From positions 1 through 26,307 of IMG/VR virus record IMGVR_UViG_3300044960_000076: a stretch of DNA of 26,307 bases; one strand, given 5' to 3'. The notes below the pieces were generated by a model that was not told the DNA's origin, made no database searches, and saw only the letters and a program-made list of their open reading frames with translations. The translations under genes were made by a program, and so were the position numbers. Of the stretch, positions 2,359 through 26,307 are shown one piece after another (within the stretch, counting starts at the first letter, position 1; the number at the start of each line of letters is the position of its first letter). This DNA comes from a virus.

Positions 2359-3922
2359 TGCAGACCTCTCCCGCAAGCTGCCAGCTTACGCAGATGTTAT
2401 TTATGATGTTTTGAGCTTTGCTGGCGGGATGAATACTAGGTCATCACAACTCTTTCTAGGCCGGGACTCCTTGTTTGCCTTGCGCAAGGACCAAGCTCCT
2501 CTCATCGTGAACTTGGTTAGGAATTCCAGCGGAGCGTTGCAAACCAGGCCTGGGCGCGTCAAGATCAATAGTGCGCCTGTGGTGCCGCCAGCAGGCGACT
2601 CCGTTATTCGCTCTTTGTTTGAGCTTCGCACTCAGAGCGGTACGAACGTGATATTGATGAATGCTGGTAACACAGTGTACAAGCTGGTTGGCACAACTTG
2701 GACCAGCATTGGCACAGTTGCAACCAACAACCTTCGCATGTTGTGGGCGCAATTCAACGATCTGGCACTTGGCATCAATGGCACGGATGCGATGGTGAGC
2801 TATGATGGGACAACCTTCACGACCGTGACTGGCGCTCCAACCAACGGCTCAGCAATTGCATCGCATAGAAACCGAGTGTGGATTGTAGCTGGCCGCACGC
2901 TTAAATACTCGGCTCTTGGCAACCATGCAGACTGGAGTACTCCCAACAACGCCGGCGCTCTGCCAATCCCAACAACTCGCGGCAGGGGCGGCACGGCACT
3001 TATCTCACTTTGGGACCGGCTTATAGTGTTCACCAGCGATCAGGTGTTTCAGGTGCTTGGCACCGGTCCATCAACCTTCGCCCTCGAACCGATCAACCTC
3101 CAATATGGCCACGAGTTGTCGCCTTATGGAGTGGTAGCAGCTGGGAATGATATTTATTATGGTTCTCAGCGAGGTTGCCACGGGCTTAGCATTGACTACT
3201 CTCAATCTGTGACTGGCGACGTAAGCTACGACTACGTCAGTGGGGTGATTGAACCGACGTGGCAGGATATTGACAAATCCAACCTCTCCAACGTTGTCGC
3301 CGTGCATGATAGTGAGAGGAATCTGTTGATCTATCTTTGCAACCGCAGCGGGACGCAGAATGCAGAAGCGCTAGTTGCAGACTACTACCACCTTGACGCC
3401 AGGGGCCGGCCTACTTGGAGTATCTATGCCAACATGCCTTTCGCTTGTGGCGCTGAGGTCTATTCCATCAACAACACCAAAGAGGTGATCTTTGGTAGTT
3501 ATGATGGCTATGTATATCGACAAGACCCAGATGTCTTCCAGGATGATGGCAGTGACGTTAGTGTGCAGCTTCAGTATGTCACTGATCTAGATTTGCCTGT
3601 CTTTAGCAAGTTGTGGAGGCACATGCTGTTGTTTGCCAGCTCAACCGCCTCAGAAGTCCTGACTGGCAACATTATCTACGACTTTGGTGCATTGGCAAAA
3701 GGTTTTGACGTCAGTCTCGGCGGCGCTCAAGGTGACAGGATCGGTTCGACCTTCACTATTGGTGTGTCGCCTATTGGAACCGCCGACTACCAACAACATC
3801 GAGTGTCAATTGCTGGCCATGGGAGGTTTGCAACTATCTACCTAGCCGGCTCGGTTAGCTCGAAACTTAGCATTGGAGGGATGATATTCTATGCTGGCAT
3901 TAGGCGTGCGATTCATCACTAG
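2351..3922 (+). CDS. Putative tail nozzle / tail-stabilisation protein
   Basis: 523 residues, beta-rich throughout. The N-terminus has the pattern seen in phage nozzle (T7 gp12-like) and stabilisation proteins: a GGMNTRSS motif near residue 25, then a region pairing a ligand-type loop (APLIVNLVRNSSGALQTRPG, about 49-68). This is followed by repeated WD/Kelch-like beta strands with many G-W-S/T turns and a LYV-type propeller texture (for example VWIVAGRTLKYS, DRLIVFTSDQVFQVLG). In known phages this protein forms the distal conical nozzle under the adaptor. It starts inside the adaptor gene (8-base overlap) and its 3' end overlaps the tail fibre gene by 32 bases, so the three genes are translationally linked. 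Confidence 0.65.
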   Translation: MPSADLSRKLPAYADVIYDVLSFAGGMNTRSSQLFLGRDSLFALRKDQAPLIVNLVRNSSGALQTRPGRVKINSAPVVPPAGDSVIRSLFELRTQSGTNVILMNAGNTVYKLVGTTWTSIGTVATNNLRMLWAQFNDLALGINGTDAMVSYDGTTFTTVTGAPTNGSAIASHRNRVWIVAGRTLKYSALGNHADWSTPNNAGALPIPTTRGRGGTALISLWDRLIVFTSDQVFQVLGTGPSTFALEPINLQYGHELSPYGVVAAGNDIYYGSQRGCHGLSIDYSQSVTGDVSYDYVSGVIEPTWQDIDKSNLSNVVAVHDSERNLLIYLCNRSGTQNAEALVADYYHLDARGRPTWSIYANMPFACGAEVYSINNTKEVIFGSYDGYVYRQDPDVFQDDGSDVSVQLQYVTDLDLPVFSKLWRHMLLFASSTASEVLTGNIIYDFGALAKGFDVSLGGAQGDRIGSTFTIGVSPIGTADYQQHRVSIAGHGRFATIYLAGSVSSKLSIGGMIFYAGIRRAIHH

Positions 3923-5186
3923 TTTGTTGGTTTTGTTGTTGGCTACTCCATCCTTGGCCGGTACCATCAGTCGGCCGGCCAAGTCTTTTGGTGGGAATGT
4001 TTGGATCAACGGAGTGGTGCCACAGGCCAGCGATCTGAATGGCGATATTGACACAATCTATAGCGAGTTTAATGGCAATATCTCAGATGCCAATATCAGT
4101 ACCAGTGCGTCTATTGCGCCGACAAAGATCAACCCTGATGGGTTCACAGTCAACATCAGAACCGTCAACACCCAGCCCTGCACAACGTTGGAGGAGTCTG
4201 ACCAGCCGGCAGACTCCAAACGTTGGGCCTTGTGTTCGGTTGGGGGAGAGTTTCGAGTCTCAACTTATAGCGACGCCGGCAGCCCTCAAGCTAACTGGCT
4301 CGCAATCAACCGGGCTAATGGAGGATTCCAGCTAGGTGGCGCCAGCGGGACCAACACAGTTAACGGGGCAACCACCTTCAACCATGCGGTGACCTTCCTT
4401 GGGAGCAGTTCGCTAGTACCGACAGGCACCGTGATGATGTTTATGGGAACAACTGCGCCGGTGGGCTGGTTGTTGATGGATGGAGCCACTAATAGTTGCA
4501 CAGGCACTTCTAGCGCCAATGCCAACTTGTGTGCGCAGTTGGTTGGGCTGTTTCCAACCGCCAACTACAAAGGTGCTGCCGCAGGCACGGTGACAGTTGA
4601 TACGGCGAGTGATGAGGTGATTAGTCTTGGTCATGGCAACAGTGTCGGCGACCGAGTGCACTTCAGCACCACTGGAACGTTGCCAGCGCCGCTGGGTGCC
4701 TCTACTGTCTATTGCATCGTGTCAGTGACAACTGATCGCTACAAGATCGGCACGGCTTGTGGAGGCGCGGCGGTTGACATTACGAGTACTGGCAGCGGCA
4801 CACACAGCCACCATTTTAATTTTGTGACGCCAGACGCAAGAGGCAGAAACGTCATTGGGAGTGGAACTGGCGCTGGATTGACAGCAAGAACGATAGGTGC
4901 GACTGGTGGCGAGGAGCAACACCAGTTGCTGGCGTCGGAGTCAGGGCTGCCTGCCCACTCTCACACCATCAATGATCCTGGGCATTCGCACAGCCTCCAA
5001 TCTGGTGAAGAGTTAGCTATTGGAGGTATTCCGGCGCTTCTTAAACAATTCTCCACTAGTAGCACTGCATTCACCAGCACGAATTCCACTGGCATCACTA
5101 TCAACAGCACCGGCCCCCTGAACGCCCCCACCCCCCACAACGTCATGGACCCCTTCATCGTGATGACCTACATCATCAAGCTCTAA
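3891..5186 (+). CDS. Tail fibre / receptor-binding protein with collar domain and N-terminal signal-like segment
   Basis: 431 residues. Residues 1-23 look like a secretory signal: Arg at 7, a hydrophobic stretch ITSLLVLLLATPSLA, and a possible cleavage site after Ala23. GGAGGG about 10 bases upstream supports this ATG rather than a later one. Residues about 176-225 match the phage tail collar domain (PTGTVMMFMGTTAPVGW, then LLMDG). Residues about 226-308 form a beta-sandwich insertion (TVTVDTASDEV, SVGDRVHFSTTGTLP), a module common in phage fibres. The C-terminus has a T4 gp12-like ending: DARGRNVIGSG (315-325), His pairs at 356/358 and 365/367 that could bind metal, and a final HNVMDPFIVMTYIIKL. 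It overlaps the nozzle gene by 32 bases. It likely binds the host surface. Confidence 0.85.
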   Translation: MLALGVRFITSLLVLLLATPSLAGTISRPAKSFGGNVWINGVVPQASDLNGDIDTIYSEFNGNISDANISTSASIAPTKINPDGFTVNIRTVNTQPCTTLEESDQPADSKRWALCSVGGEFRVSTYSDAGSPQANWLAINRANGGFQLGGASGTNTVNGATTFNHAVTFLGSSSLVPTGTVMMFMGTTAPVGWLLMDGATNSCTGTSSANANLCAQLVGLFPTANYKGAAAGTVTVDTASDEVISLGHGNSVGDRVHFSTTGTLPAPLGASTVYCIVSVTTDRYKIGTACGGAAVDITSTGSGTHSHHFNFVTPDARGRNVIGSGTGAGLTARTIGATGGEEQHQLLASESGLPAHSHTINDPGHSHSLQSGEELAIGGIPALLKQFSTSSTAFTSTNSTGITINSTGPLNAPTPHNVMDPFIVMTYIIKL

Positions 5187-5195
5187 GGAGAACTT

Positions 5196-5426
5196 ATGAG
5201 AGTTGACGTTGATACCAAGAACAAATCAATCTCAATCACTCTCGACGACAACGAGTGGAGAGTTGTGACACGAGCCAGCCCAACCGAGCTTCGAGATGTT
5301 CTGGCGAACTATTTCAAAAGCCGAAGCGCAGGGTTGTTGGAGGAAGACCTCCAAGCTATCTCTGCGAAGCTGCGCTCGGCTACTGAGGCCCAAGTGCAAG
5401 CTGTGAAGATGGCGCTTGGGTTGTGA
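5196..5426 (+). CDS. Small hypothetical protein, two-part alpha/beta
   Basis: 76 residues, family not recognised. AAGGAG lies 5-8 bases before ATG and the gene starts 9 bases after the fibre stop. Residues 1-25 predict beta strands (MRVDVDTKNKSISITL), and residues 28-76 predict helices with a pattern of acidic and basic residues (LLEEDLQAISAKLRSATEAQ). Placed between the fibre and the S74 protein, it could be a fibre chaperone or minor virion component, but that is only positional inference. Confidence 0.7.
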   Translation: MRVDVDTKNKSISITLDDNEWRVVTRASPTELRDVLANYFKSRSAGLLEEDLQAISAKLRSATEAQVQAVKMALGL

Positions 5427-5438
5427 GGAGGTGAGCAA

Positions 5439-6452
5439 ATGGGGCTTTTTGGAAGTACAAAGGTTATCATACCTCCCAATCCCACGCTCAGCATGGGGGA
5501 TGTCTCACAAGCTGGCGAAGCAGCCAGGGCTCTAACCGCCCAAACACCTGAGGAGCGCGCGCTGCTGGCCCAGCTTGCGGCAGGCCTGGAGGGGGTTGAC
5601 CTGGGTGTTCTTGATGAGATGGCCGCGCTTCGGGCCAGGGGCGAAAGCCTAGCCGATGTGGATGAGGCCTACATGCGCAGGGCCTACCAACCTGCTTATG
5701 AGCGCCTCATGAACGACTACCAGCTCATGGACAGGCAGCTGATGGAGGACCTCAACGCCAGGGGCATTGCAGCGATTCCTGGCGGGATGAGCGAGCAAGA
5801 AGCCTACCAGCGAATGTTGCTGGCGAGAGATACAAAGGAGGCCTTGGCCAGGAATATTCTTGAAGCCCAGAACCAAGCTGTCCAGCAGAAGCTGGCCCAG
5901 TACAATGCACGCCTGGCTGAGATGAACCAGGCCAACGTGCGTAGGGGGCAGGTCTTCGACCCTTACTATGAGGCTACGGTAGTGCCTGAAGCTGAGCGCA
6001 TGCAGACTAGGGTTGGGGCAGCGAGTAACATCTACAACGCCAGGCTCGGCCACCAAGCCCAGATGCACCAGATCAACACTCAACGCAAGATGGCCGGGCA
6101 ACAGAACATTATGAACGCGATTGGTGCTGGCACTGGGTTGTTGGGTTCTTTGGCGATAGCTGGCGCTATAGCGAGTGACCAAAACGTCAAGAAGGATTTC
6201 TCTCCCCCAAACACTCCTGAACAAGACTTGGAGGAACTCACCTCCATTCCGGTGGCTCGCTGGCGTTACCAATTTGAGAGCGAAGCTGAGCCCATGCACA
6301 CTGGCGGAATGGCACAAGACATGCCACCTGACATCTCGCCTGATGGCAGAAGCGTAGATGTAGTGAGCTATCTTGGCAAAACAACTCAGGCCATAAAGGC
6401 TCTTGCTAAGAAGGTCAACGGGTTTGAACAACTTTTGATGGGAGGTTTGTGA
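5439..6452 (+). CDS. Helical virion protein with C-terminal S74 intramolecular chaperone domain
   Basis: 337 residues; AGGAGG precedes the ATG. Residues 25-220 are almost wholly helical and rich in A, E, Q, R, with long coiled-coil-like stretches. Residues 224-245 form a Gly/Ala hydrophobic segment (NAIGAGTGLLGSLAIAGAIA). From Ser246 the sequence matches the S74 (endosialidase-type) chaperone: S246-D247, Lys251 five residues on (the Ser-Lys dyad spacing known from MYRF), VARWRYQF, HTGGMAQD at 287-294, and a final SVDVVSYLGKTTQAIKALAKKV helix. Such domains trimerise the protein then cleave themselves off at the Ser. They are usually attached to beta-helical fibres; here the partner is helical and lies in the internal-virion-protein region. 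Cleavage before Ser246 would leave a 245-residue product. Confidence 0.85.
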   Translation: MGLFGSTKVIIPPNPTLSMGDVSQAGEAARALTAQTPEERALLAQLAAGLEGVDLGVLDEMAALRARGESLADVDEAYMRRAYQPAYERLMNDYQLMDRQLMEDLNARGIAAIPGGMSEQEAYQRMLLARDTKEALARNILEAQNQAVQQKLAQYNARLAEMNQANVRRGQVFDPYYEATVVPEAERMQTRVGAASNIYNARLGHQAQMHQINTQRKMAGQQNIMNAIGAGTGLLGSLAIAGAIASDQNVKKDFSPPNTPEQDLEELTSIPVARWRYQFESEAEPMHTGGMAQDMPPDISPDGRSVDVVSYLGKTTQAIKALAKKVNGFEQLLMGGL

Positions 6453-7217: not shown

Positions 7218-10200
7218 ATGCCACAAACTGAAAAGTGGTATTCGCCAGAAGAACTTGCCACAGAAATGGCGCAAGAAACTGCTAAGCGAAAGCGCTTGAT
7301 GGTGACTGGGCCTCCGCTGGATCTTCCAACGTTTTCAGAGCAGGCTGAGATGGCGCGCCAAGTTCGCGCTATTAATAGGGCCAACAGTCGCATGGCGCAG
7401 GAGGAAGGAGAAGCATATTCGCCGGAGCGTTCGGCAGCAAGTGCGCCCGCACCTGCGAAGCCTGGGCCTTACGACCAGCAATTCTCTTATTGGGACTCCA
7501 TGCTGGCCACAGAGGCAAAACTCTCAAGGGCTGCAGAGGACTACGACCGGCGTGCGCCCAATCTCACGCCAGAGGCTTGGCAAACTGCGGCTAAGCTAAA
7601 GCATGAATTGGCCAAGGTGAGAGAGCAGTTCTCAAAGGATCGAGACGATCCCGACTTGGCCGAAGCCTATGAGGCTTGGTACAACGCCAGGTTTGGTTCT
7701 GAACGGCAAGAACCACAAGAGCCAGGCTTGCTGAGCAAGATTCTTTCTGGTGTCGCAGACACTGCTAAGTATGCAGTCCAGCACCCAGCAGAAGCTGCCA
7801 AGGATGTTGGGTTGGGGGTGCAAACCTTTGCCTCGCTGCCTCTAAGGGCAATTGAGAGCTTGACTTCTGGTGGCAAAGGCTGGCCGATCTTATCACCTTA
7901 CAAAGGCATCAGCCAGCGTGAACAAGAGGTTGCCAAGAGCCATGAGGAAGCCGGCGTGGAGCCGAGAGGTACTGGCCCAGTGGTTGCGAAAGCTCTTGGC
8001 GAAGCTATGGTGCCAGTTGGGCCTACGTTCAAGTCCGGCCAGTGGATCAGGAATATCTTGAGAGGCAGTGCCTTTACTACTGGTGCTTATGGCCTTGAGC
8101 GATTGGCTGAGAATGAGCCAATTGATGCTGGGGGTGTTACTACCAGCGGTGGCATTGGTGCTGCTATTGGTGGACTGGCGACGCTGCTAAGCAGAGGTAA
8201 ACTGAAACCTGGGCGCGTTGGTGGCGAGCCTTCGGCTGGGCCTGCACCGGAGCCTTCGGCAGGACCTCCCCCTAAGCCTCTTGGGATTCCTTATCGTGAT
8301 ACCACGGCTGGGACTTTTGGGCCGGAAGGGGAGTTCTATGGTCCTCCGCCTCCGCCCAGACTTCCAGCTCCTGAACCCCCGGCCAGAAGCTACTACCGGG
8401 AGATGATGGAACGAGTCACCTCCAAGCCGGCGTCGGAGCTGACGCAAGAAGAGAAAGGCTTCTTGCTCAACGAACTACGAAGGGGTCGGCATGAACCGCC
8501 TAATGCTGGTGGAACGTTTGAGGCTATTGAGAGTCCTAAAGACATTAGAACTGCGGCTGCGGCGAAGGAGATTGCAGAGCCACCAGCTTCGCCACCCTAT
8601 CCTGGTTCGATTTATGGACTTCCTGGGGTCAAAGCCCCTGAACCTTTGCCTGAACCTTTGCCTGAACCTTTGGTGGAAGCGCCAAAACCAAGCGCCAAAG
8701 CCAAGCCCAGCAAGACGGATTCTAAACTGGCTGAGATTTTGGGAAGGCTAGAAGCTAGAGCTCCGCAGGTTGAGAAGGCGGTGCCAGAGGAAGTTCCAAT
8801 CGCAACTACGCCGTTCAGGGTTGAACCAACACCTTCGGCCAAGGTTGAGGCGCCTAGCAAGCTTGAATCGCCGGCGCCAAAAGCTACCAAGGTGGATGAG
8901 GCCGTGAAGCGGGCAGAAGAAGAGCTTCTCTCAGACGTCATTAAAGGCAAGAAGGACGTCACTAGCTTGCCCCTCGAACGCCCCCCAAAAGCAGAAGCTC
9001 CAAAGGCAGAAAAGGCTCCTGAGCCTATAGCTTTTGGAGCGCCAGAAGCAGAGCTGCCGAAAAGTGTTGGCAAAATTGCCAAAACTAAAAAGACGGCTCA
9101 AGAACTTTATGAGGAGCAACTGGCGCTTGGCAAATCTCCAAAAGAAGCACAGGAGTTTGCCGAGTTCAAGACTAATGTTAAGCTGGCGCCAGAACAACTT
9201 AAGCCGGCGCAGGAGATTCGCCTTGAGGACTTCATCAAGTCTAAAGGCTATAAAATCGAGGAAAAGGAACCGTTCCCTGGCCAAAAGTCTTACAACCTCA
9301 TCAACCCTCGCAATGGCAAGATTGTTGCCAGAGGCGACCGTCAAACCATTCTCAACGCTTTGAATGCTTTGCACGAAGGCCAGGGAGTGAAGCTCTATAG
9401 CTTCCCTGGCAATCTGGATGCTTTCAAAGACATGTTTGAGGGGATGCTGGACTTGGCCCGTACCAGGGCCAAAGCACCGGCCGGCGTCTCGGTTGAGAAC
9501 CAACCCACCAAACGCTCGGTGGTGAATAAGATTTTGCAACCTTTTGAGACGCCAGAGTTCTTGATGCGCAAGTATGCGCCAGGGAAGGCTGTTGTTGAGG
9601 AAACAAAGTGGGCTGAGCGCCAGATTGGCAAACGTATCAATGACTTGTTGTATAGAGAGACTCGGGAAGGTTATGAACAAACCAAGCTCTTCAGGTATTT
9701 TGAGATGCCCGAGGCTGACAGAGCCCAGGTTGACAGGGCTCTTGTTGTCGGGGATCGGATTGGGAGAGAGTTCTCACCTGAGCAATTGAAGAAGTTTGGC
9801 TTGACGGATGCCCAGATCGAAGCCTACCAAGGCGTGCGTGAGGCTCTCAAGGATGTGCGAAGCTGGGTGAAGGATATGCCTGGGTCTGAGGACCTGGACC
9901 TTGGCGATATTCCCGGCTACATTCCTCGTGTCTGGCATGGCAACATGGAGATTTTTGTTGATGGAAGTAAGTACCTCAAACCAGATGGCAGCAGCGCTTT
10001 TGGAACTTTGCGGGAGGCTTCTGTCGAGGCCTACCGAATTAAGCAACGCCAACCTGACGCGAAGGTTGAGATTAGGTTCTTTGCAGACCCAGAGTACCTT
10101 GGTGGCAGAGCCTTCCAAGATGCTCAAGTCATCTCTCGAATCAAGCGCAACTTGGAGAAGATGGGCTCCGCCCGCCCTGAGGATGTGGACAGGGCTTATG

Positions 10201-11855
10201 CAATGGGGAGAGACTTGAAAGGGTTTGTGAAGCATCTTGAGAAGCGCAAAGGCGAGGAGGGTTATGAGACTGAAGGGCTAGACAAAATCCTCTTCAACTA
10301 CTTCCATCAGGCTGCTAAGATGGTGGAGATGAGGAATCTGAGGGAGGTGGTGAAGGACATCATCTCGAATCATGCAAGAGAACTCACCTCAGACCAGATA
10401 CACTACCTGCAGAACTATGTTGAGCGCGTGGCCGGGAGACCGACGTGGGATCAGATCTGGCTCCATGACATTCTAGCGAACACGAAAATTGGGGATTGGT
10501 TGGATCCGGTGCATGGGAGCAAAGCTCTTTCAGACATTCGCCAGCTTGTCAACCACTTGACTCTTGGGCTTGGTAACATAAGCTGGGCCATCGTCAACGT
10601 AGATAGCTTGATTCGCCACGCTTGGCCAGCACTGCAGCGGGAGGCTAATGCCATTGGAATGGCCAACCCAGCGGCTGCTGAGAAATACCTGGCTTCTGGC
10701 ATCAAAGAATTCTTCACCAACCGCCAGCTTCGCCAGAAACTAGCCCACTGGGGCGTGGTTGATATTCAACATATGAGCGAGAAGCGCCCGCAAATTGGCC
10801 ACATTCTGGGTAAAGGTGAATGGACTCCAGATCGCGTGAGCATGGCGCTGGGCACTGCAACTGAGGAGTTTGTGCGAGGTGTCTCGGCTATTGCTAGGTA
10901 TCGGATGGCCAAGGATATGGGGGCCAAGGAGCTAGAAGCCCTCCAAGCTGCCGCCAGGTTTGTTGATGAGACCTCTGGCCGCTACACCAGAGCTGGCAAG
11001 CCTGCGGCTTTCACAGGAGCTCTTGGCGAGACCATTGGCATGTACAAAACCTACACCTCAGTTTTTGCCCAGAATGCTTGGAAGGCTTTCGCTGGCGCTA
11101 AAGATGATCCTGGCGCCTTCATTCGTTACGTAATTGCAACACTGGGCGTTAGTGGGTTACTTGGCCTGCCAGGGGTTGATGATCTGGATGAACTCATCAC
11201 TAGGAATTTTGGCTGGTCGCCTATCGAGGCCATGCAACGCACCATGCCGAAAGCAATCTTGACAGGCCTGGCCAGTGTTGCTCCTGGGTGGTTAGGCGTG
11301 CCTGAGTTGAATGTTGACTTGAGCAAGAAGGCTGGCGCACCAGACATCATCCCCAACGACTTGAAGTCTGCGCTCGGGCCGGTCATCAACAGATTCGCTA
11401 GTGTGGTTTCTGATCTAGCCAAAGGCGAATACAAAGAGGCTGCGCTGGACTTGCTTCCCAACTCACTGCGGGGCCCAGTGCAAGTGATTCGAGGGATGGA
11501 TCGAGGTGTTGCGATTGGAAGGTATGACAAGCCTGTGATAAAGCTGCGGCCAGGGGAGGAGATCCCAAAGGTTCTTGGCTTTCCACCTGCTAGGGAGGTC
11601 GAAGATCAGCGGATGGTGGGGAGGATTTCTAGCAAGGCGGCTTATAGAGATGAACGCTTGCGCGAGCTGAGTCACAAGATAGTGCAAGGCACGGCCAGCC
11701 ATGCAGAGCGGCAAGAGTTCCGCAAACTTGGCGGTACTGCAGAGCGTCTGCGTGGTGAGCGCGAGCGGGAACGTCTCACCACCCGTGAACGCCAGTTTAG
11801 ACATCTGCCGAAGATCCTCAGACGCGAAGCCAGGCCATCAGTTGTCGGGGAGTGA
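7218..11855 (+). CDS. Giant virion/ejection protein with PLxRFG-like C-terminal module
   Basis: 1545 residues; AAGGAGG precedes the ATG. Residues about 1-170 are charged helices. About 180-330 contain a Gly/Ala-rich segment with hydrophobic stretches. About 330-640 form a Pro/Ala/Glu/Lys-rich linker including a tandem EPLP repeat. From about 750 on the protein is folded: PGYIPRVWHG near residue 899 resembles the motif that names PLxRFG domains of phage polyvalent proteins. Downstream are the other family landmarks: LGLGNISWAIVN near 1115, a GETIGMYKTYTSVFAQNAWKA helix near 1270, and a hydrophobic GVSGLLGLPGVDD near 1310. Proteins of this kind are packaged and injected with the DNA, often protecting it or modifying the host early. 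The C-terminal 18 bases overlap the opposing HTH gene. No peptidase or transglycosylase motif was identified. Confidence 0.8.
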   Translation: MPQTEKWYSPEELATEMAQETAKRKRLMVTGPPLDLPTFSEQAEMARQVRAINRANSRMAQEEGEAYSPERSAASAPAPAKPGPYDQQFSYWDSMLATEAKLSRAAEDYDRRAPNLTPEAWQTAAKLKHELAKVREQFSKDRDDPDLAEAYEAWYNARFGSERQEPQEPGLLSKILSGVADTAKYAVQHPAEAAKDVGLGVQTFASLPLRAIESLTSGGKGWPILSPYKGISQREQEVAKSHEEAGVEPRGTGPVVAKALGEAMVPVGPTFKSGQWIRNILRGSAFTTGAYGLERLAENEPIDAGGVTTSGGIGAAIGGLATLLSRGKLKPGRVGGEPSAGPAPEPSAGPPPKPLGIPYRDTTAGTFGPEGEFYGPPPPPRLPAPEPPARSYYREMMERVTSKPASELTQEEKGFLLNELRRGRHEPPNAGGTFEAIESPKDIRTAAAAKEIAEPPASPPYPGSIYGLPGVKAPEPLPEPLPEPLVEAPKPSAKAKPSKTDSKLAEILGRLEARAPQVEKAVPEEVPIATTPFRVEPTPSAKVEAPSKLESPAPKATKVDEAVKRAEEELLSDVIKGKKDVTSLPLERPPKAEAPKAEKAPEPIAFGAPEAELPKSVGKIAKTKKTAQELYEEQLALGKSPKEAQEFAEFKTNVKLAPEQLKPAQEIRLEDFIKSKGYKIEEKEPFPGQKSYNLINPRNGKIVARGDRQTILNALNALHEGQGVKLYSFPGNLDAFKDMFEGMLDLARTRAKAPAGVSVENQPTKRSVVNKILQPFETPEFLMRKYAPGKAVVEETKWAERQIGKRINDLLYRETREGYEQTKLFRYFEMPEADRAQVDRALVVGDRIGREFSPEQLKKFGLTDAQIEAYQGVREALKDVRSWVKDMPGSEDLDLGDIPGYIPRVWHGNMEIFVDGSKYLKPDGSSAFGTLREASVEAYRIKQRQPDAKVEIRFFADPEYLGGRAFQDAQVISRIKRNLEKMGSARPEDVDRAYAMGRDLKGFVKHLEKRKGEEGYETEGLDKILFNYFHQAAKMVEMRNLREVVKDIISNHARELTSDQIHYLQNYVERVAGRPTWDQIWLHDILANTKIGDWLDPVHGSKALSDIRQLVNHLTLGLGNISWAIVNVDSLIRHAWPALQREANAIGMANPAAAEKYLASGIKEFFTNRQLRQKLAHWGVVDIQHMSEKRPQIGHILGKGEWTPDRVSMALGTATEEFVRGVSAIARYRMAKDMGAKELEALQAAARFVDETSGRYTRAGKPAAFTGALGETIGMYKTYTSVFAQNAWKAFAGAKDDPGAFIRYVIATLGVSGLLGLPGVDDLDELITRNFGWSPIEAMQRTMPKAILTGLASVAPGWLGVPELNVDLSKKAGAPDIIPNDLKSALGPVINRFASVVSDLAKGEYKEAALDLLPNSLRGPVQVIRGMDRGVAIGRYDKPVIKLRPGEEIPKVLGFPPAREVEDQRMVGRISSKAAYRDERLRELSHKIVQGTASHAERQEFRKLGGTAERLRGERERERLTTRERQFRHLPKILRREARPSVVGE
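8637..8672 (+). repeat. Three tandem copies of a 12-base unit
   Basis: The unit CCTGAACCTTTG occurs three times head to tail (8637-8648, 8649-8660, 8661-8672). It encodes a PEPLPEPLPEPL stretch in the disordered linker of the giant virion protein. Perfect repetition suggests recent slippage expansion, and the copy number may differ between relatives. Confidence 0.9.
9067..9082. repeat. Inverted repeat TTGGCAA-AA-TTGCCAA (copy 1, inside coding sequence)
   Basis: The 16-base sequence TTGGCAAAATTGCCAA lies in the giant virion protein gene, read as GGC AAA ATT GCC AAA. The same 16 bases recur between the two paralogous genes at 25231-25246, and a variant with GT spacer at 16981-16996. This copy is probably a by-product of coding for GKIAK. 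Confidence 0.5.
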
Positions 11856-12165: not shown

Positions 12166-13587
12166 TTACTCCTCTGTTAGCGACACCAGTCGGTAGCATC
12201 GCTTCTTGTTAACAGTGATGAGTTTGACTACGTCTGCTTCTATTAAGGTACTTAGGATGATGTCAAGCCCGGCGCAATCTAAGCGGCGATAGACTTTTTT
12301 CATAAGAGTGCTGCGATCAAGAACCCCGCCGTTGCGCCGGAGGACTTCTATTACATAGAGCGCCAGCTTACCCCTGTCGCTGGTGTCAATCATTTTGGCC
12401 ACATCTGCACAATTTGCATGGGCCATTGCGACGATGTTGAAGGCACGTTGAAGCACGCTATCGTCAAGTTCCATGCCTCCCCCAACCAAGCTCTCACAGG
12501 CCCTAAGACACATTGCTACTTTGATGATTTGGTCAGGCTGGCGTTCGATGACGCCTGAGGAAGTGGTGGTCTCAAGTATCCTATGGTGGTGTTTGTAGTA
12601 TTTGATAAACCACTCACGGCCAGAAGCAGAGAATCCCACCGGCCCAACAAACTCCTTGTCGATGTTTCGCAGGCCATTCACCAAGTTCTCACGAATCGTA
12701 GGATCAACCGGAACGGCAAACGGCACCACTCGTGGGGTGCTGTCTTTGATTACGATTGAGAGCCGGCTCATCAACCCTCCGCCGGTGGCTGCTTGAGGGA
12801 TGGCTCTGCTGATCTCGCTTGGGGTAGTGGCGCCAAGTAAACACACAAAGATGTTTTTGAGCTTCTCCACCCCTCTCGAAATAGTCTCAACCTCTTGTAC
12901 ATCTGCGCAATCATAAAGACGCGTTAGCATGGTGATGAGGGAGGCGTTGTATTGTTCGGAGCCTAGAAACACTGTCAGCTCCGGCGCCACAATAACGCCT
13001 TCGGCACGAGACTCGATCTTCATTCCACCAGACTCTTTAACCTTCTCAATCGGTTTGGAGAGCCTCCTGGCCAGTGCTTCAGGTGTACACTTCTCACTTA
13101 TGATCCGCATTTCTGGCACGGCTTCGCGCATCAGATTAACCCCGATGTTGATAGCAGTGGTTTTCTTGCCAATGCCAGGAGGGCTTACTAGGATGGTGTA
13201 GAGGTTTGGGTAGAGTTTGTGATAGACATTATCAAACCAGACCTTTCGGCGCAAGGCAGAAGCTACAACAGTGAGACCGACCCAAACATGGAAATCCTCC
13301 GGCGCCTCATGGCCGGCGGTGTAGTCTAGGTAGTCTCTCAACCACCCGGGTTTGATGTTTCGATGAAGGCTCTCCAACCCCCAGCAGAGCTCTGGGTTCA
13401 TAAGGAGGTTGTTGAAGGAATGAGAGGAGAGTTCAAGCTTCTTACAAACCGCATCTTGCACAAGCAAAGGATCGGGGAGTTCGGTCCAATACTTCCTGAT
13501 GAAATTAAACAGTTCGTAGCGAACGGCACTTGGGGAGTCGAGACTGATGTCTTCGATGAGTGCTAGGAGTTCTTCGGTCTTTGTCAT
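12166..13587 (-). CDS. DUF3987-like replicative helicase / AAA+ ATPase
   Basis: 473 residues from ATG 13587, chosen over an ATG at 13614 because GGAGGA lies about 8 bases before it and because it makes an ATGA overlap with the polymerase stop. A primase-type N-terminal helical region (1-95) is followed by an ATPase core. The core has the P-loop SPPGIGKKTT at 135-144 (Lys follows GK where Ser/Thr is usual), a Walker-B-like VIVAPELTVF at 198-207 with Glu203, and a GGGLMSRLSIV segment at 269-279 whose Arg275 may be an arginine finger. The C-terminus contains a winged-helix-like segment (STLMKKVYRRLDCAGL, then STLIEADVV). Family knowledge: DUF3987 proteins act as phage replicative helicases. Location beside the polymerase supports that role. 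Confidence 0.7.
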   Translation of the reverse strand: MTKTEELLALIEDISLDSPSAVRYELFNFIRKYWTELPDPLLVQDAVCKKLELSSHSFNNLLMNPELCWGLESLHRNIKPGWLRDYLDYTAGHEAPEDFHVWVGLTVVASALRRKVWFDNVYHKLYPNLYTILVSPPGIGKKTTAINIGVNLMREAVPEMRIISEKCTPEALARRLSKPIEKVKESGGMKIESRAEGVIVAPELTVFLGSEQYNASLITMLTRLYDCADVQEVETISRGVEKLKNIFVCLLGATTPSEISRAIPQAATGGGLMSRLSIVIKDSTPRVVPFAVPVDPTIRENLVNGLRNIDKEFVGPVGFSASGREWFIKYYKHHHRILETTTSSGVIERQPDQIIKVAMCLRACESLVGGGMELDDSVLQRAFNIVAMAHANCADVAKMIDTSDRGKLALYVIEVLRRNGGVLDRSTLMKKVYRRLDCAGLDIILSTLIEADVVKLITVNKKRCYRLVSLTEE

Positions 13588-14828
13588 GGTTTGAATTCCT
13601 CCATGCTTCCCCAACTACGGCCTAGCTTTGCTTCAACTGGGAACTTGACCTCTCTTCCGAACACCCGCACTGGCGTTTCCATAAGCTCTTTCAGCTTCGC
13701 TAGTTCGCTGGTGCTGGAGTCCTCTTGCACCTCAAACACCAGCGAATCGTGAACTTGGCAGATGCAACGGGTGGAGGGGAGTAGATGTCCCTGGCGCTTC
13801 GCTCTATCAATTCTCACCATCGCCCTGTTCATGATCCCGCTGGCGGTAGCTTGAGTGGGCCAGGAATAGGCCACTTGGCGGCGTTCGCCAGGAGCACTGT
13901 AGAGTACACGCGGGACCCCAAAGCCATCATGGAGTATGCCTGTTTTCTCACACTCTGCCCAACAACGGTTGCGCCAGGCAAGGAGTTCAGGAATGCCAGC
14001 ATCTAAGCGTTCCGCCATAGGCTTTAGCTCACTCACTGGGTGCCATTCGCCGGTGTCGACTAGGAGCTTGTCTGCCACTGCCGCCAGCGAAGCACCATAG
14101 TTACGCGAGTACACAAAGCGCTTGCTGAAGTTGTATTCCGCTGCTTGTTTGTGTTTGTCGGTTATTGGGCGCCCAAAGATGATTGATGCTCGGTAGAGGT
14201 GTGTGTTCTGGCCCTTCTCAAACATCTCAATCAGAGTCGCGCAGCCAGAAGCATAAGCTGGGATGCGGTCCTCAAGCGCCGAGTAGTCGAGCTCTGCGAG
14301 CACAAACCCAGGAGGGGCGATGTAGATGTCCTTGATGTTGATTCCGTGAGTGGCGCTGCGTGGGAGGTTTTGGAGGTCTGGATCACGACTACTCAAGCGC
14401 CAAGTCACAGTGCCATAGAGTCTGAACTGGCTGCGCACTCTACCGTCAGACCACACAACCGGCCGGAGGTAGGTGCCTTTCTTCTTGCCAAGATCTCGAT
14501 ATGCCAGGATGAGTTGGATTATTGGCTTGGCCTCTGGCACCTCAATCCCAGCCTTCAACAACGACAGTTCGTCGCTAGAGACACCTTTCTTGGATTGATT
14601 CAAGTTCAGCCCAAGATCCTTCTCAAGCACTTCAATAACTTGTTTGGAGGAGTTGGGATTGAATGGATAGCCTAGAGCCTCTTCAAGCAACTCAGTGATT
14701 TTAGATTGCTTGGCTTCGCACTCCTGGCGGTAGTGGGTGATGAGTTCTCTATCCACCAACATTCCGGCGCGTTGGATGGCTAGGACAATCCATTGCAGTG
14801 GTTCTATTACCTCATCATAATAAGCCAT
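13584..14828 (-). CDS. Family A DNA polymerase, polymerase domain only
   Basis: 414 residues, thumb/palm/fingers without exonuclease. It opens with EVIEPLQWIVLAIQRAGMLVD, the helix that normally follows the exonuclease in PolA. Motif A is LDYSALEDR (Asp181, Glu186), motif B is KRFVYSRNYGAS (Lys236, Tyr240, Tyr244), motif C is VHDSL (His360, Asp361). TWRLSSRDPDLQNLPR (142-157) is the typical primer-template segment. Tyr240 sits at the E. coli Phe762 position, as in T7 polymerase. The conserved O-helix Arg four residues before the motif B Lys is Tyr232 here. Glu of HDE is Ser362. The gene overlaps the UDG-exonuclease gene by 14 bases in the +1 frame; AAGGAG lies 13 bases before ATG, so reinitiation is likely. 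It ends in an ATGA overlap with the helicase gene. Confidence 0.93.
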   Translation of the reverse strand: MAYYDEVIEPLQWIVLAIQRAGMLVDRELITHYRQECEAKQSKITELLEEALGYPFNPNSSKQVIEVLEKDLGLNLNQSKKGVSSDELSLLKAGIEVPEAKPIIQLILAYRDLGKKKGTYLRPVVWSDGRVRSQFRLYGTVTWRLSSRDPDLQNLPRSATHGINIKDIYIAPPGFVLAELDYSALEDRIPAYASGCATLIEMFEKGQNTHLYRASIIFGRPITDKHKQAAEYNFSKRFVYSRNYGASLAAVADKLLVDTGEWHPVSELKPMAERLDAGIPELLAWRNRCWAECEKTGILHDGFGVPRVLYSAPGERRQVAYSWPTQATASGIMNRAMVRIDRAKRQGHLLPSTRCICQVHDSLVFEVQEDSSTSELAKLKELMETPVRVFGREVKFPVEAKLGRSWGSMEEFKP

Positions 14829-15963
14829 CGCTCAGCTTTAGCTCCTTCATCTCAGCATCGAGTTGAAAGTTTGTAATGTAGGTTGCGATGCAATCGAGAA
14901 CGTTGTAGCGGCGAACTACGTCGTCGGGTGCCCAGAGCATCCCCCCATGACGCCTTACGTCACCTTTGTAGTAGGGGAGATCGGTGTAGATGGAGGTTAA
15001 GAATGCCAAGCTATGCGGTAGCTCTGTGGCGACTATGTGGTGTTTGATTAGAGTGTCAACGACAGTGCCATGGCGGAACTTCACGCCCAAGTCCATCAAC
15101 ACCGGCAAGTCAAAGGTGAAACCGTTCTGGGTGATTTTGAGGCAGTCGCTGGCGAAAAGCTTGCAGAGCGCTTCCCAAGCCTTGAACTCCTCCCAATCAT
15201 TGTGCCAATAAGGATAGCCTCCTCGGCGGAGGAATGGTACGCACAGTGCGTCTTTGTGCGACCACGCCAGCCCAACACACAAAACGTTGGTTTGTTCGAG
15301 TTCTCCAATTGTCTCGATGTCAAAAGCCACGGCAAGGTGGTTGGTGAGAATGTGGTCGATGGTGGAGGTGATGTCTGATAGTGAGGGGTTGAGGATGAAG
15401 TTCTCCTCCCTTGGCGCCAGCTCACCAGAATGAGAATGCTGGCGGACCTTTTTGAGGTCTGTTACGGTAATGGCCCAGTACTCAGGATTCCCACGTGCGA
15501 CAAAAGAAGGGTGGACGATTGGGATGAGTTTGCCGAACTCAGTCTTAAAGATGTGACCCCGGAGTTGGGTGATTCCGGCCGGCGCTTTTGGGAGCAAGAA
15601 CTTGAGCGCAGTCTCCCCAACCGCTACAACGACGTTGGGACGAATCTTGCGTAGCTCATCCACAAGATAACGTTGAGTGCAATGGGAGATTTCATCTTTG
15701 GTTGGGACACGATTCCCTGGCGGTCTACATTTGACTACGTTGGTTAGGTAGTAGTCGGCTGGCGACAGGCCTGCTTGCCACAACATGGTGCGAAGCATTC
15801 GGCCAGTGCCTCCGACAAAAGGCCGGCCTTCGACAGCCTCGCTCTCCCCTAGCGCCTCCCCCACCAAAACAATTCTGGCCTCGTGATTACCTTCGCCAGG
15901 CGCAAAGCCTTGGTTGAGGGAGGCACTAGGACACCCTGCACACTCACTCGGTTTAGTTTTCAT
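14815..15963 (-). CDS. Uracil-DNA glycosylase (family 4-like) fused to PolA-type 3'-5' exonuclease
   Basis: 382 residues. Residues 1-175 are a family 4-type UDG: iron-sulfur cysteines C8-x2-C11 and C79-x15-C95, the GEALGESE...GRPFVG motif (35-51) and HPSFVAR (151-157). Residues 205-365 are a DEDD exonuclease: Exo I FDIET (Asp215, Glu217), Exo II NGFTFD (Asn280, Asp285), Exo III YNVLD (Tyr353, Asp357, DEDDy type). The protein ends (KLSDGLL) exactly where the polymerase domain should begin, and the next gene supplies that domain after a 14-base overlap. Together the pair equals one UDG-exonuclease-PolA polypeptide. The likely role is proofreading with uracil removal or sensing at the fork. RBS is weak (GGTGAG). 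The gene starts 3 bases after the upstream stop. Confidence 0.9.
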   Translation of the reverse strand: MKTKPSECAGCPSASLNQGFAPGEGNHEARIVLVGEALGESEAVEGRPFVGGTGRMLRTMLWQAGLSPADYYLTNVVKCRPPGNRVPTKDEISHCTQRYLVDELRKIRPNVVVAVGETALKFLLPKAPAGITQLRGHIFKTEFGKLIPIVHPSFVARGNPEYWAITVTDLKKVRQHSHSGELAPREENFILNPSLSDITSTIDHILTNHLAVAFDIETIGELEQTNVLCVGLAWSHKDALCVPFLRRGGYPYWHNDWEEFKAWEALCKLFASDCLKITQNGFTFDLPVLMDLGVKFRHGTVVDTLIKHHIVATELPHSLAFLTSIYTDLPYYKGDVRRHGGMLWAPDDVVRRYNVLDCIATYITNFQLDAEMKELKLSDGLL

Positions 15964-15966
15964 ATC

Positions 15967-16170
15967 TCACCGTTCGTAGCGTCGCCAGTCTTGGTAATCT
16001 TCTCTCAGGAACTCTCTTTTATCTGGCCAATAACTGGGGTTGTTGTGGTGGGTCCAGAAGTCATTGGCCCACTTCATGGCTTCATTACAATCCATAGCTC
16101 TCACAAACGTAACTGCCCCAAGAGCAAACCCAAGCACAAAACCGGCAACGAAGGCTTTTTGAGTTTTCAT
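15967..16170 (-). CDS. Small protein with N-terminal membrane/signal segment
   Basis: 67 residues, not recognised. MKTQK is followed by a Gly/Ala/Val/Phe hydrophobic segment (residues 6-24, FVAGFVLGFALGAVTFVRA) that could be a signal peptide with cleavage near Ala25 or a membrane anchor. The rest (about 42 residues) is polar and aromatic with several Trp (MKWANDFWTHHNN, YWPDK, DWRRYER). AGGAGG lies 5 bases before ATG, and the gene overlaps the methyltransferase stop by ATGA. It probably acts in the envelope, and its position inside a replication operon is odd. Confidence 0.75.
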   Translation of the reverse strand: MKTQKAFVAGFVLGFALGAVTFVRAMDCNEAMKWANDFWTHHNNPSYWPDKREFLREDYQDWRRYER

Positions 16171-17441
16171 TTGGTCCTCCTCATCACAACAATATCACCG
16201 TGGTTGGGGAGTAAGAACTTCCCTTGCTTTGCAGCTTCTACATCAAAACCTTTGTAAAGAGTGGTTGGGTAGGTGACACCTATGCGAGTCCAAGGAGTCA
16301 TGCCGGCGTCGAGAAGTAGTTGGTAGGTCTTGATGGGCCAGTCTATGTAACCTTCAGGTAAACCTTCTGGAAGTCTGAAGTACTGACTCATGTTAATGAC
16401 TGCCACGAAACCTCCAACACAAACGGTTTGCGCAGCATCGCGCAAGAGCTTCGCGTAGAAGGCCTCGAACTCTTCTAGCGCCAGCCGACTGGCCGAGGCG
16501 TCTGAGTAGCCTTCATCCTTCATGTTCCAGTAAGGAGGGTCCATGAAGATGAGCGCAGCATCTTTGGCCTCTTCTGGGAACCCTTCTTTGATGTCATGCT
16601 GGATGATGTCTGGGCGTTTGGGGGCTACGTCGTAGCCTAGACATTCTCTGCCCAGAAATGATGCAGCGTCAAGAGTACTCCCACCGCCAGCCATAGGATC
16701 AACCACCAGATCGCCGGGCTCTGTAAAATAGTAGATAACGTTGGCCGGGATCTGGCCCGGGATTCGGCCAGGGTGGGGTATCCCAAATCGTGGATCGTTC
16801 TCAGTGAACTGCCAAGAATTGTAGAATCTAATGAAATCGGGTATTTCGGGTTCAGATTCGCTGGGCTCTTTGATGAGAGGTCTGAGTGCCTTGTAGGCAG
16901 CGTCGATGGAGAGTTCTCCCCTGTCGACTTTCTCGAGTTTGGCTTTGGCATTCTCATTCTCCTTGGCCAGTTCATAAATTTTGGCAAGTTTGCCAAAACT
17001 TCGCGGTTTCATCCCAACAGCTTCCGCCACCACCGCCCTGGTGTCGATCTTTTCCTCAACACTAATAACACGGCCAGCTCCGAGACGATTACGAGCGGCC
17101 TTCTCAGCAATAACCTGCTGAATAAGTTCCGCTTCGCGCATCTTCTCAGATGCAGTCTTGTCACGGTAACGATTGTACTCAACGAGGAGTTCACGATCAT
17201 CACCTCCTTCGCGGAACTCAACTGGCACTTGGGCCAGGCCTAGATGCTTGGCGACTGCAAGCCGGCGGTGGCCGGAGAGGAGTTTGTATGTTCCTGGCCG
17301 AACCACCAAAGGCGTTAGTATTCCATGCTCACGCACCGAGCTCTCCATCTCAGCAAAGCCAAGGCACGTATCATCGAAGGTTGTGTAGATCTTTTCGTTT
17401 AATGGATCTGGCTGGATTAGGTTTGTGTCTATCATTTCCAT
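16167..17441 (-). CDS. ParB/Srx-type domain fused to DNA methyltransferase
   Basis: 424 residues; AAGGAGG lies 11-12 bases before ATG 17441, too far from the ATG two codons later. Residues 1-95 match the ParB N-terminal fold with GHRR at 57-60 (LLSGHRRLAVAKHLGL). Residues about 100-195 are helical with a HTH-like stretch (VVAEAVGMKPRSFGKLAKIYEL). Residues 200-424 are an N6-adenine or N4-cytosine methyltransferase: SAM motif VVDPMAGGGST (246-256) with acidic Asp271 in the next strand, and catalytic DPPYWN at 301-306. Motif I precedes motif IV. No cognate nuclease is nearby, so this is an orphan phage methyltransferase, possibly for self-protection or control. It overlaps the dNMP kinase by 10 bases. 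Confidence 0.9.
   Translation of the reverse strand: MEMIDTNLIQPDPLNEKIYTTFDDTCLGFAEMESSVREHGILTPLVVRPGTYKLLSGHRRLAVAKHLGLAQVPVEFREGGDDRELLVEYNRYRDKTASEKMREAELIQQVIAEKAARNRLGAGRVISVEEKIDTRAVVAEAVGMKPRSFGKLAKIYELAKENENAKAKLEKVDRGELSIDAAYKALRPLIKEPSESEPEIPDFIRFYNSWQFTENDPRFGIPHPGRIPGQIPANVIYYFTEPGDLVVDPMAGGGSTLDAASFLGRECLGYDVAPKRPDIIQHDIKEGFPEEAKDAALIFMDPPYWNMKDEGYSDASASRLALEEFEAFYAKLLRDAAQTVCVGGFVAVINMSQYFRLPEGLPEGYIDWPIKTYQLLLDAGMTPWTRIGVTYPTTLYKGFDVEAAKQGKFLLPNHGDIVVMRRTK
16981..16996. repeat. Inverted repeat TTGGCAA-GT-TTGCCAA (copy 2, inside coding sequence)
   Basis: Arms extend to 9 bases (16979-16987 and 16990-16998). Same arms as the copies at 9067-9082 and 25231-25246 but with GT spacer. 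It lies in the HTH-like segment of the ParB-methyltransferase gene, read on the - strand as GGC AAA CTT GCC AAA. Confidence 0.5.
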
Positions 17442-17998
17442 AGGCTATTTTGCACCTCCTTGTTCTTGTTGGTGATTCTATCTAGCTGACTGCGTAGCTC
17501 ATCAATCCCAGCATCGTTTCTGATGTAGCTATCAACTGGGATGAAGAGTTGTTCTTGTTCAGTTGGGTGGTCGCCGGCGCAACCAGCGAAGTTGCTGATG
17601 CGAATGATGCGATGGATGGTGCCCCCAAGCTCTCTAATTGCGTTAGCTTCGTTCAAGAACCTCACGTCATCCACTACGACTTTCTGGCCTTTGCTTAGAA
17701 GCTTCTTGGCTTTCGCAATGAATAAGTTGGCCCAAAGATCCTCCCCTATGAGCTTGCGCCCCCACTCCGTTCCGAGAGTTTGCATGATGTAGCGAGGCGT
17801 GTGGTTGCACCAAGTCGGAAGGGGAGTGTTTTTGGCATCTCCATCCAACTGTTCTGGCGTGAATCCCACTGCCGCCAGCATGGATTTGAGGGAGGAGGCG
17901 AACCTCAATCTAATAAAACCTTGTTCTTCAAGAAGCTTGGCACAAGTAGTCTTTCCGCTGCCGGCAAAACCTGTGAAACCTATCAACTCACCGTTCAT
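17432..17998 (-). CDS. Deoxynucleoside monophosphate kinase
   Basis: 188 residues. P-loop GFAGSGKTT (10-18) opens the protein. RLRFASSLKSML (about 30-41), IMQTLGTEWGRKLIGEDLW (about 71-89) and VVVDDVRFLNEANAIRELGG (about 106-125) are the substrate-binding and LID-region signatures of phage dNMP kinases (T4 gp1 type). These phosphorylate dNMPs to dNDPs to supply replication and can handle modified nucleotides. AAGGAGG precedes ATG; the start overlaps the LysM-like gene stop by ATGA. Neighbours (MazG-like pyrophosphohydrolase, UDG, polymerase) form a nucleotide-pool set. Confidence 0.88.
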   Translation of the reverse strand: MNGELIGFTGFAGSGKTTCAKLLEEQGFIRLRFASSLKSMLAAVGFTPEQLDGDAKNTPLPTWCNHTPRYIMQTLGTEWGRKLIGEDLWANLFIAKAKKLLSKGQKVVVDDVRFLNEANAIRELGGTIHRIIRISNFAGCAGDHPTEQEQLFIPVDSYIRNDAGIDELRSQLDRITNKNKEVQNSLWK

Positions 17999-18225
17999 TT
18001 ATCCTCCTTGGCTTTCCACTTCCGGACCATCTCAAGCACGTCTACATCCACAAACCCCACCACGAACAGTTCGCCGGGGTAGATGATGCTAGGATCTCTC
18101 ACCCCAAACTCATCAAACTGAGGGTTGAGGGCTGCGAATTCTGGAAACGTCAGTCCATGGATCTTGCATATCGAAAGGATGGAGTCACCCTTTCGGACTT
18201 TGTAGAGCTTCGCTACCTTGTTCAT
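17995..18225 (-). CDS. LysM-domain protein without signal peptide
   Basis: 76 residues, nearly all one LysM module: YKVRKGDSILSICKIHGL (8-25), FPEFAALNPQ (28-37), and IIYPGELFVV (47-56). The tail (57-76) is acidic then basic. LysM normally binds peptidoglycan or chitin; here there is no signal peptide or catalytic domain, and the gene lies between the dNMP kinase and a Cys-rich protein. It could be a virion or tail-associated piece, a lysis accessory, or a re-purposed binding module. AAGGAG lies 6-8 bases before ATG and the gene overlaps the Cys-rich gene by 41 bases. Confidence 0.8.
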   Translation of the reverse strand: MNKVAKLYKVRKGDSILSICKIHGLTFPEFAALNPQFDEFGVRDPSIIYPGELFVVGFVDVDVLEMVRKWKAKEDK

Positions 18226-22815: not shown

Positions 22816-23532
22816 CTAGGTAAGCAGTGCTTTGACAGCCTTGCCTTCTAGCGTCTTGGGTTGGTATTCTATTGCAAGAGCTTTGTTGGAGGCCAGTAGG
22901 ACTGTGATTATGTCCTCGAAGCACTCGGCTGAGGTTGAGGACAAATAGAACGCTTTGCCTCCAGATAACTTGGCGATCTTCTCGAATGCCTCCACAGTGT
23001 CTGGATGCCGCGCGGTGTAGAGCGCATAGATAGGACACCCCGCCAGCCGGCACTCATGGGCCTCGGTGTAACCTTCTGAGCCTTTGTGCCCTGGCGCATC
23101 TCCGATGAGGATGATTTGAGATGGGCCTTCATGAATGACCTCTTTGAGACCATCCCCAATCGACTCGGGAAAGTCTCCGCCGCCGGTGCAATAGACTGAT
23201 CCGACGAACTCCTTCAGGTAACCAGTGTTGTCAGACCATTCGCAAGCTTCTATCGGGTAGTTGTCGCACCTTACATCCCGATACCCCACCACTTTGATTT
23301 GGATGGGCACCGTTGATTGGTTCTTGATGCCGTCAATTACTCGGTTGAGAGTTTTGGTGGCCACCTCCCAGTATGGCCCCATAGAGCTGGTGCAGTCAAA
23401 CACTAGAGCGATGCGCTGGCGCCGACTCTCAAGAGCTTCCGCCAGCTCTCTCAGTTCGTCAAGATCATCCAACGAAGTTTCTCCAAACTCACCAAACTCG
23501 CTCACTTCCTTTTTTGGCTCTAGCTTGTCCAT
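22816..23532 (-). CDS. von Willebrand factor A domain protein
   Basis: 238 residues. An acidic N-terminal segment (8-36) precedes a vWA fold from about 38. MIDAS motif: Asp46-x-Thr48-x-Ser50 in LVFDCTSSMG; VVGYRDV (81-87); TGGGDFPES (116-124); and LIGDAPGHKG (142-151) with Asp145. YRD, GGGDxPE and GDAPxH are characteristic of the vWA subgroup found with alpha-kinases and in some bacterial operons. A metal-dependent protein-binding or scaffold role is inferred. No kinase is present in the window. Neighbours are a coiled-coil/J-like protein and a Zn-ribbon protein. AAGGAGGG precedes ATG. Confidence 0.85.
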   Translation of the reverse strand: MDKLEPKKEVSEFGEFGETSLDDLDELRELAEALESRRQRIALVFDCTSSMGPYWEVATKTLNRVIDGIKNQSTVPIQIKVVGYRDVRCDNYPIEACEWSDNTGYLKEFVGSVYCTGGGDFPESIGDGLKEVIHEGPSQIILIGDAPGHKGSEGYTEAHECRLAGCPIYALYTARHPDTVEAFEKIAKLSGGKAFYLSSTSAECFEDIITVLLASNKALAIEYQPKTLEGKAVKALLT

Positions 23533-25818: not shown

Positions 25819-25928
25819 CCAGCTTGCGCCAGCATGCACGTTTCATGCCAGCTTGTCGGCGTGCAAACAGCATGCCAGCTCGCCAGCTTGCAAAGTGAAT
25901 GCCAGCTTGTGCAGCATGCGCCAGCACG
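25819..25928. repeat. Iteron array of CCAGCWTG-like units, helical phasing
   Basis: Nine units at 25819, 25829, 25848, 25867, 25875, 25883, 25902, 25911 and 25921. Spacings are 10, 19, 19, 8, 8, 19, 9 and 10 bases, near one or two DNA turns. Units are CCAGCTTG, CCAGCATG, CAGCATG, CCAGCTCG and CCAGCACG. Part of the 639-base non-coding region (25669-26307). Looks like a protein-bound iteron array (replication initiator, partition or regulator). Confidence 0.65.
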
Positions 25929-25959
25929 TGCTTCATGACGCAAGCGGCGCGAGCTTGCG

Positions 25960-26046
25960 TAAGCTATTGAAAAACTTGCGACTTCTGCACTTCCCAGCAC
26001 GTTCCGCTCACGTAAGTGATTGAAAAACTTGCGACTTCTGCATTTC
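25960..26046 (+). repeat. Two direct long repeats (left arm of origin-like region)
   Basis: 24 bases are identical at 25966-25989 and 26019-26042 (starting ATTGAAAAACTTGCGAC, ending CTTCTGCA), 53 bases apart. Both are preceded by TAAG and followed by more CTTC/TTCTGCA units. Inverted relatives lie at 26191-26226 and 26251-26286. Confidence 0.85.
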
Positions 26047-26190
26047 TGCAACTTCTACGCTCGCGAATTGTATTATATATAGCCGACAAACAACATTCAT
26101 CAATTTTTTTTGATATGTATATCATTTATAATACACTCCCCGCTCATTACACAAAAAAACAAAAAAACGTTGACGGCTGCAGAAGTTGCA
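26047..26190. other. AT-rich core between converging repeats (origin candidate)
   Basis: No gene. Contains TATTATATATAG (26071-26082), T8 run (26104-26111), TGATATGTATATCA (near-palindrome, 26111-26124), TATAAT (26127-26132) and poly-A tracts (26152-26167). Two -10-like hexamers (TATAAT at 26127-26132 on + and 26077-26072 on -) lack good -35 partners. Easy-melting DNA flanked by symmetric repeats is typical of replication origins; promoters for divergent transcription are the alternative. Confidence 0.5.
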
Positions 26191-26286: not shown

Positions 26287-26307
26287 ATGCTGGCGCTCGC
26301 TCACGTG

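Follow-up and report, generated by a model that had tools for sequence, protein, structure and literature searches.

Two-gene form of a phage family A DNA polymerase, broken at the exonuclease/polymerase boundary

Phage enzymes in which a uracil-DNA glycosylase (UDG), a 3'-5' exonuclease and a family A polymerase (PolA) form one chain are known from PaBG gp205 (PMC7412058). Naturally divided polymerases are known as well: in the T4-like Aeromonas phages 25 and 44RR, gp43A and gp43B purify together and are active (PMC2988022), and the OM43 phages MEP401 and MEP402 and their relatives encode PolA in two open reading frames (ORFs) with a small ORF between them, an arrangement conserved in that group (PMC10580990). 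Here we describe a locus in the virus record IMGVR_UViG_3300044960_000076 (26,307 bases, analysed whole and called the window below), where the UDG and exonuclease domains are encoded by one gene (gene 1) and the polymerase domain by the next (gene 2), both on the minus strand. With a probability of roughly 0.8, we consider that the two proteins form a two-subunit, Klenow-like family A replicative polymerase with a UDG module, derived from a broken single chain.

The two genes have the domains of SPO1 gp31, PaBG gp205 and the polymerases of vir526, Mel-JY34 and a Desulfofustis phage, in the same order. SPO1-type polymerases are single chains, whereas the present group, about 25–32% identical to them, has two ORFs in each of five genomes. 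The likeness to gp43A/gp43B lies in a replicative polymerase encoded by two cistrons with variable junction DNA; those proteins, however, are of family B and lack a UDG, and their origin may involve homing endonucleases, of which none was seen at the present junctions. In MEP401 and MEP402 the break is inside the polymerase domain rather than at the exonuclease/polymerase boundary, and the available part of that account reports no UDG for them (PMC10580990). Among the open-access papers searched, none dealt with a PolA split at this boundary with a UDG on the exonuclease part. What is new here is the domain-boundary split of PolA with the UDG on the exonuclease subunit; split phage polymerases and UDG-exonuclease-polymerase chains were already known.

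The two genes and their junction

A preliminary description of the window had read the locus as two ORFs overlapping by 14 nt in the +1 frame, with a four-cysteine UDG and a complete DEDDy exonuclease in gene 1 and with gene 2 beginning after the exonuclease, and each of these readings holds (Table 1). Pfam places the UDG domain (PF03167, E 1.3e-32) at gene 1 residues 22–165, and the nearest solved structures are family 4 UDGs, TM0511 (1vk2, E 1e-34) and 1ui0. As in that family, cysteines C8, C11, C79 and C95 and the residues GE, F49, N75 and H151 are retained, the motifs reading GEALGESE, F49, TNVVK and HPS; the four cysteines, predicted ligands of a 4Fe-4S cluster, and the UDG motifs are conserved in 4/4 full-length split copies. 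The exonuclease match (PF01612, DNA_pol_A_exo1, residues 206–368, E 6e-5) scores 23.3 bits, just under the gathering score of 23.6, and the catalytic residues D215/E217, D285 and Y353/D357, belonging to the DxE, N-x-F-T-F-D and Y-x3-D motifs, are all present, again in 4/4 full-length copies. Gene 2 matches PF00476 (DNA_pol_A, E 4e-57, residues 29–407) and has the family A motifs A (D181/E186/R188), B (K236/Y240/Y244) and C (HDS 360–362, with H360 and D361). It aligns with Taq from residue 430, and with the Klenow fragment from residue 204, to the C-terminus, that is, from the first thumb helix onward. Both proteins match PHROG 17 (phage DNA polymerase), protein 1 at profile positions 476–818 and protein 2 at 839–1235. 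The two proteins thus cover successive parts of the profile as a single, divided member of the family, and the correct order of the two polymerase halves excludes a chance pair of ORFs.

Joining the frames was expected to give a natural linker, and the read-through across the overlap indeed aligns with E. coli Klenow as one continuous match (212–785). An AlphaFold2 (AF2) model of the read-through, made from 21 aligned rows (predicted local distance difference test, pLDDT, 84; predicted template modelling score, pTM, 0.74), superposes on Klenow 326–928 with Z 37.6 and a root-mean-square deviation of 4.2 over 564 residues; an earlier model from six rows was poor (pLDDT 62) and was not used. In the AF2 model the break falls in the loop between helix 346–374, which ends the exonuclease, and helix 378–399, which starts the thumb. 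A break at this domain boundary leaves the sequence of the Klenow interface intact.

Three stops in the polymerase frame (TGA, TAA, TGA) lie within 21 nt upstream of the gene 2 ATG; they therefore fix the start of gene 2 and exclude a join further upstream, and any joining of the frames is confined to 17 nt (GCGATGGCTTATTATGA). The AAGGAG ahead of the ATG has a long spacing of 13 nt, and the same bases code for conserved gene 1 residues. This spacing and the position of the ATG inside the end of gene 1 suggest that gene 2 of the window is probably translated by coupled termination-reinitiation. The window's junction has no room for a group I or II intron, and no Rfam family matched at gathering score at the junctions of the window and six relatives.

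Table 1. Positions of the split polymerase genes, their domains and the syntenic neighbours in the window
Feature	Position	Strand	Evidence
Gene 1, UDG and 3'-5' exonuclease protein, 382 aa	14815..15963	-	ORF; Pfam; conservation in L003, L002, L006
Family-4-type UDG domain, gene 1 residues 5-174	15442..15951	-	Pfam PF03167; PDB 1vk2 TM0511; motifs
DEDDy 3'-5' exonuclease domain, gene 1 residues 206-368	14860..15348	-	Pfam PF01612; motifs; model on Klenow
Gene 2, family A polymerase domain (thumb, palm, fingers), 414 aa	13584..14828	-	Pfam PF00476; Taq/Klenow alignment
Gene 1/gene 2 overlap, 14 nt, ATGGCTTATTATGA, gene 2 start inside gene 1 end, +1 frame	14815..14828	-	
Candidate Shine-Dalgarno AAGGAG, 13 nt 5' of gene 2 ATG	14842..14847	-	
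Three gene 2-frame stops (TGA, TAA, TGA) just upstream of gene 2 ATG	14832..14849	-	
ParB-N / N6_N4 methyltransferase fusion, syntenic, upstream of gene 1	16167..17441	-	
DUF3987 primase/helicase-like protein, syntenic, downstream	12166..13614	-	Pfam PF13148; PHROG 14296 DNA primase

The break in related genomes

The two-ORF form, broken at the same residue, is present in five genomes, the window and four relatives. Viral contigs yielded few relatives when the queries were only the window proteins or three-row profiles; the fifth genome was found once L006 had been added. In MW202554.1 (Podoviridae sp. ctLwi270, complete and circular, 44,345 bp, from Manatee Spring) the UDG-exonuclease gene is at 1850–2986 and the polymerase gene at 3138–4364; this genome, with the same split and synteny, is known as annotation only, both genes being labelled 'DNA polymerase' (UOF78523.1, UOF78525.1). 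It has one polymerase locus and no other annotated polymerase. The split genes are at 2421–3572 and 3912–5138 in L003 and at 4992–6140 and 6622–7842 in L006; in L054/L042 the exonuclease ends at 166 and the polymerase occupies 604–1821. Identity to the window is 53–65% for protein 1 (L003, L002, L006) and 46–61% for protein 2. Both genes are neighbours, in the same order and co-oriented, in 5/5 genomes, within a shared order, as far as the contigs reach, of ParB-methyltransferase, UDG-exonuclease, polymerase, DUF3987-like and helix-turn-helix genes. As expected of a naturally split polymerase, the break has been inherited with both parts conserved; gene 2 is under purifying selection, with a non-synonymous rate (dN) of 0.11 and a synonymous rate (dS) of 1.58 between L006 and L042, the one pair for which values are given, dS being saturated in most pairs.

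The junction DNA is different in each of the five genomes. The window has its 14-nt overlap, and in the relatives the genes are 151–481 nt apart. MW202554.1 (151-nt gap) carries an 86-aa ORF (2878–3138) with an NrdR-type zinc ribbon (PF22811, E 4e-15), and L003 a 125-aa ORF (3556–3933) similar to nucleoside 2-deoxyribosyltransferases (PHROG 355, E 6e-16), each overlapping both flanking genes; L006 has a 160-aa ORF and L054/L042 two small ORFs. Deoxyribosyltransferase-like (DUF4406-type) genes of similar sequence stand at the junction in L003 and upstream of ParB in L006 (2907–3224), which suggests that such a gene has moved into the junction. In the relatives the polymerase is probably started from its own ribosome-binding site, a good Shine-Dalgarno sequence preceding its ATG in three of the four (AAGGAGG in L003 and L002, GGAGG in L054), and its N-terminus M-x-Y/F-Y, which in the window reads MAYYDEV, is kept in all four.

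A search for one- and two-ORF relatives, proposed in the preliminary description, separated the two forms: close relatives are all two-ORF, and a single ORF occurs only at ~32% identity or less to the split group (range about 25–32%). UDG domains before family A polymerases, which that description noted for SPO1-type phages, prove more widespread, with 82 phage records matching gene 1, among them SPO1-type, Serratia, Pseudomonas and Microcystis phages. In vir526, Mel-JY34, MW202489 and the Desulfofustis phage, fused ORFs of 779–859 aa are followed by a DUF3987/primase-type gene in modules recognisably related to the present one, and the neighbours of such syntenic fused relatives (ParB or methylase, DUF3987 primase) are similar to those of the split group. 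More distant DUF3987 phages have a single-chain PolA too, and the list of gene 1 matches did not include their polymerases. A scan of cellular genome contigs found no two-gene relative, matching the UDG part only (residues to ~212). Trees of the polymerase and of the UDG-exonuclease protein both place the split genomes in a single clade with 100/100 support, and the fused ORF is found in more distant relatives; by parsimony, a fused UDG-exonuclease-polymerase gene would therefore be ancestral and have been broken once in the split lineage. Support is weak (46/84) for the branching that connects the split clade with the fused lineages nearest to it.

Two other broken UDG-exonuclease-PolA enzymes were candidates for this event but were rejected, their breaks lying at other places and both grouping elsewhere in the tree. 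In Caulobacter phage Kuura (OQ067476, L034 3953–7357) a UDG-exonuclease-PolA is broken by two small ORFs between Exo II and Exo III, a separate event; in Vibrio phage VS-ABTNL-3 (MF497422, L037 3956–7090) the break is inside the polymerase domain, made by a 184-aa ORF with no Pfam match.

Surroundings of the locus

The ParB-methyltransferase fusion gene, of a ParB N-terminal domain and an N6/N4 DNA methyltransferase, adjoins the polymerase module in every split relative with a contig that extends to it. A 76-aa LysM-domain protein (17995–18225, minus strand) is encoded inside the replication/nucleotide gene block, with a similar ORF at 160–432 in L003. Among the early genes is one for a von Willebrand factor A domain protein (22816–23532, minus strand), and one is annotated in MW202554.1 too. 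A 1545-aa protein (7218–11855, plus strand) is transcribed towards the replication block, and its only match in the phage collection is in MW202554.1 (33%). The stretch 25820–26300 is repeat-rich and apparently non-coding, contains long inverted repeats as well as direct repeats spaced at 27 nt, and is possibly an origin or regulatory region. No tRNA was found in the window. The complete MW202554.1 has no annotated PurZ or DatZ, and on this ground a connection with 2-aminoadenine (DpoZ) phages was dropped.

Explanations for the split and its significance

The preliminary description left four options for the split, of which a broken ancestral fusion and a two-gene enzyme hold together, as the clade of five genomes indicates, and a sequencing indel and +1 recoding are disfavoured. 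The window is known from one record only, as a sequencing or assembly error that broke one ORF would allow; but the same break recurs in four independent assemblies with 46–61% polymerase identity and differing inserts. There is also no homopolymer at the overlap, the nearest being a G6 run at 14941–14946, where an indel could not join the frames because three polymerase-frame stops intervene. As a general explanation an indel is refuted by the relatives, and for the window it is very improbable. A programmed +1 frameshift in the overlap, giving a fused UDG-exonuclease-polymerase with or without the separate proteins, would fit the offset of exactly +1 and the natural linker that joining yields. 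It is impossible, however, in the four relatives, where 151–481 nt containing whole ORFs separate the genes, and the window shows no obvious slippery site: the 17-nt join region has no recognised +1 slip motif, and a P-site TTA slipping to TAT would be expected to pair poorly. We regard recoding as very improbable.

Alternatively, the proteins could be independent, gene 2 encoding a polymerase that acts alone and does not proofread, and gene 1 a UDG-exonuclease that serves separately in repair. Their separate starts and the differing genes that lie between them in four genomes are compatible with this, and a UDG and nuclease pair could do repair alone. Against it, the two genes are neighbours in the same order and orientation in all five genomes, the main catalytic residues are intact in both, the break is exactly at a natural domain boundary with the interface sequence preserved, and split T4-like polymerases do reassemble (PMC2988022); independence thus appears unlikely.

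We therefore favour a two-subunit enzyme, although several observations weigh against it. Whole ORFs lie between the genes in four genomes, so expression need not be stoichiometric, and the AF2 model is of an artificially joined chain, which shows domain compatibility and is no proof of docking in trans. The UDG has GEALGE in place of GEAPGE, and the polymerase motifs differ from those of E. coli, with Tyr at the R754 position in the whole group and Tyr at the 762 position in gene 2 (E. coli numbers being assigned by motif spacing), HDS replacing HDE in motif C, as in many fused relatives, and YR replacing YG in two members. Tyr at position 762 is the type linked to virulent phages (PMC6302109).

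In the two-subunit scheme, an ancestral UDG-exonuclease-polymerase chain would have come apart in the loop that leads from the final helix of the exonuclease to the first of the thumb, its descendants keeping two genes ever since. Gene 2, initiated at its own ATG, would extend the primer and gene 1 would proofread, the proteins docking via the interface that joins exonuclease and polymerase in Klenow-type enzymes. We infer this assembly in trans because the split gp43A and gp43B of T4-like phages co-purify and are active. The UDG domain, whose fold and key residues are kept in gene 1, may bind or remove uracil near the fork, and we hypothesise, following the preliminary description, that uracil sensing is coupled to proofreading. 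A further, rather doubtful suggestion is that the proofreading half is a detachable UDG-exonuclease subunit with a role like that of DnaQ for Pol III, which might be brought to termini that are stalled or contain uracil and might also work by itself; small cargo genes, some of them for nucleotide metabolism, would insert at the junction.

These environmental phages provide a natural, conserved Pol I cut at the exonuclease/polymerase boundary, in five divergent examples. They make testable both proofreading in trans by a family A enzyme and the role of a UDG module at the phage fork, and such naturally two-part polymerases would be usable in protein engineering.

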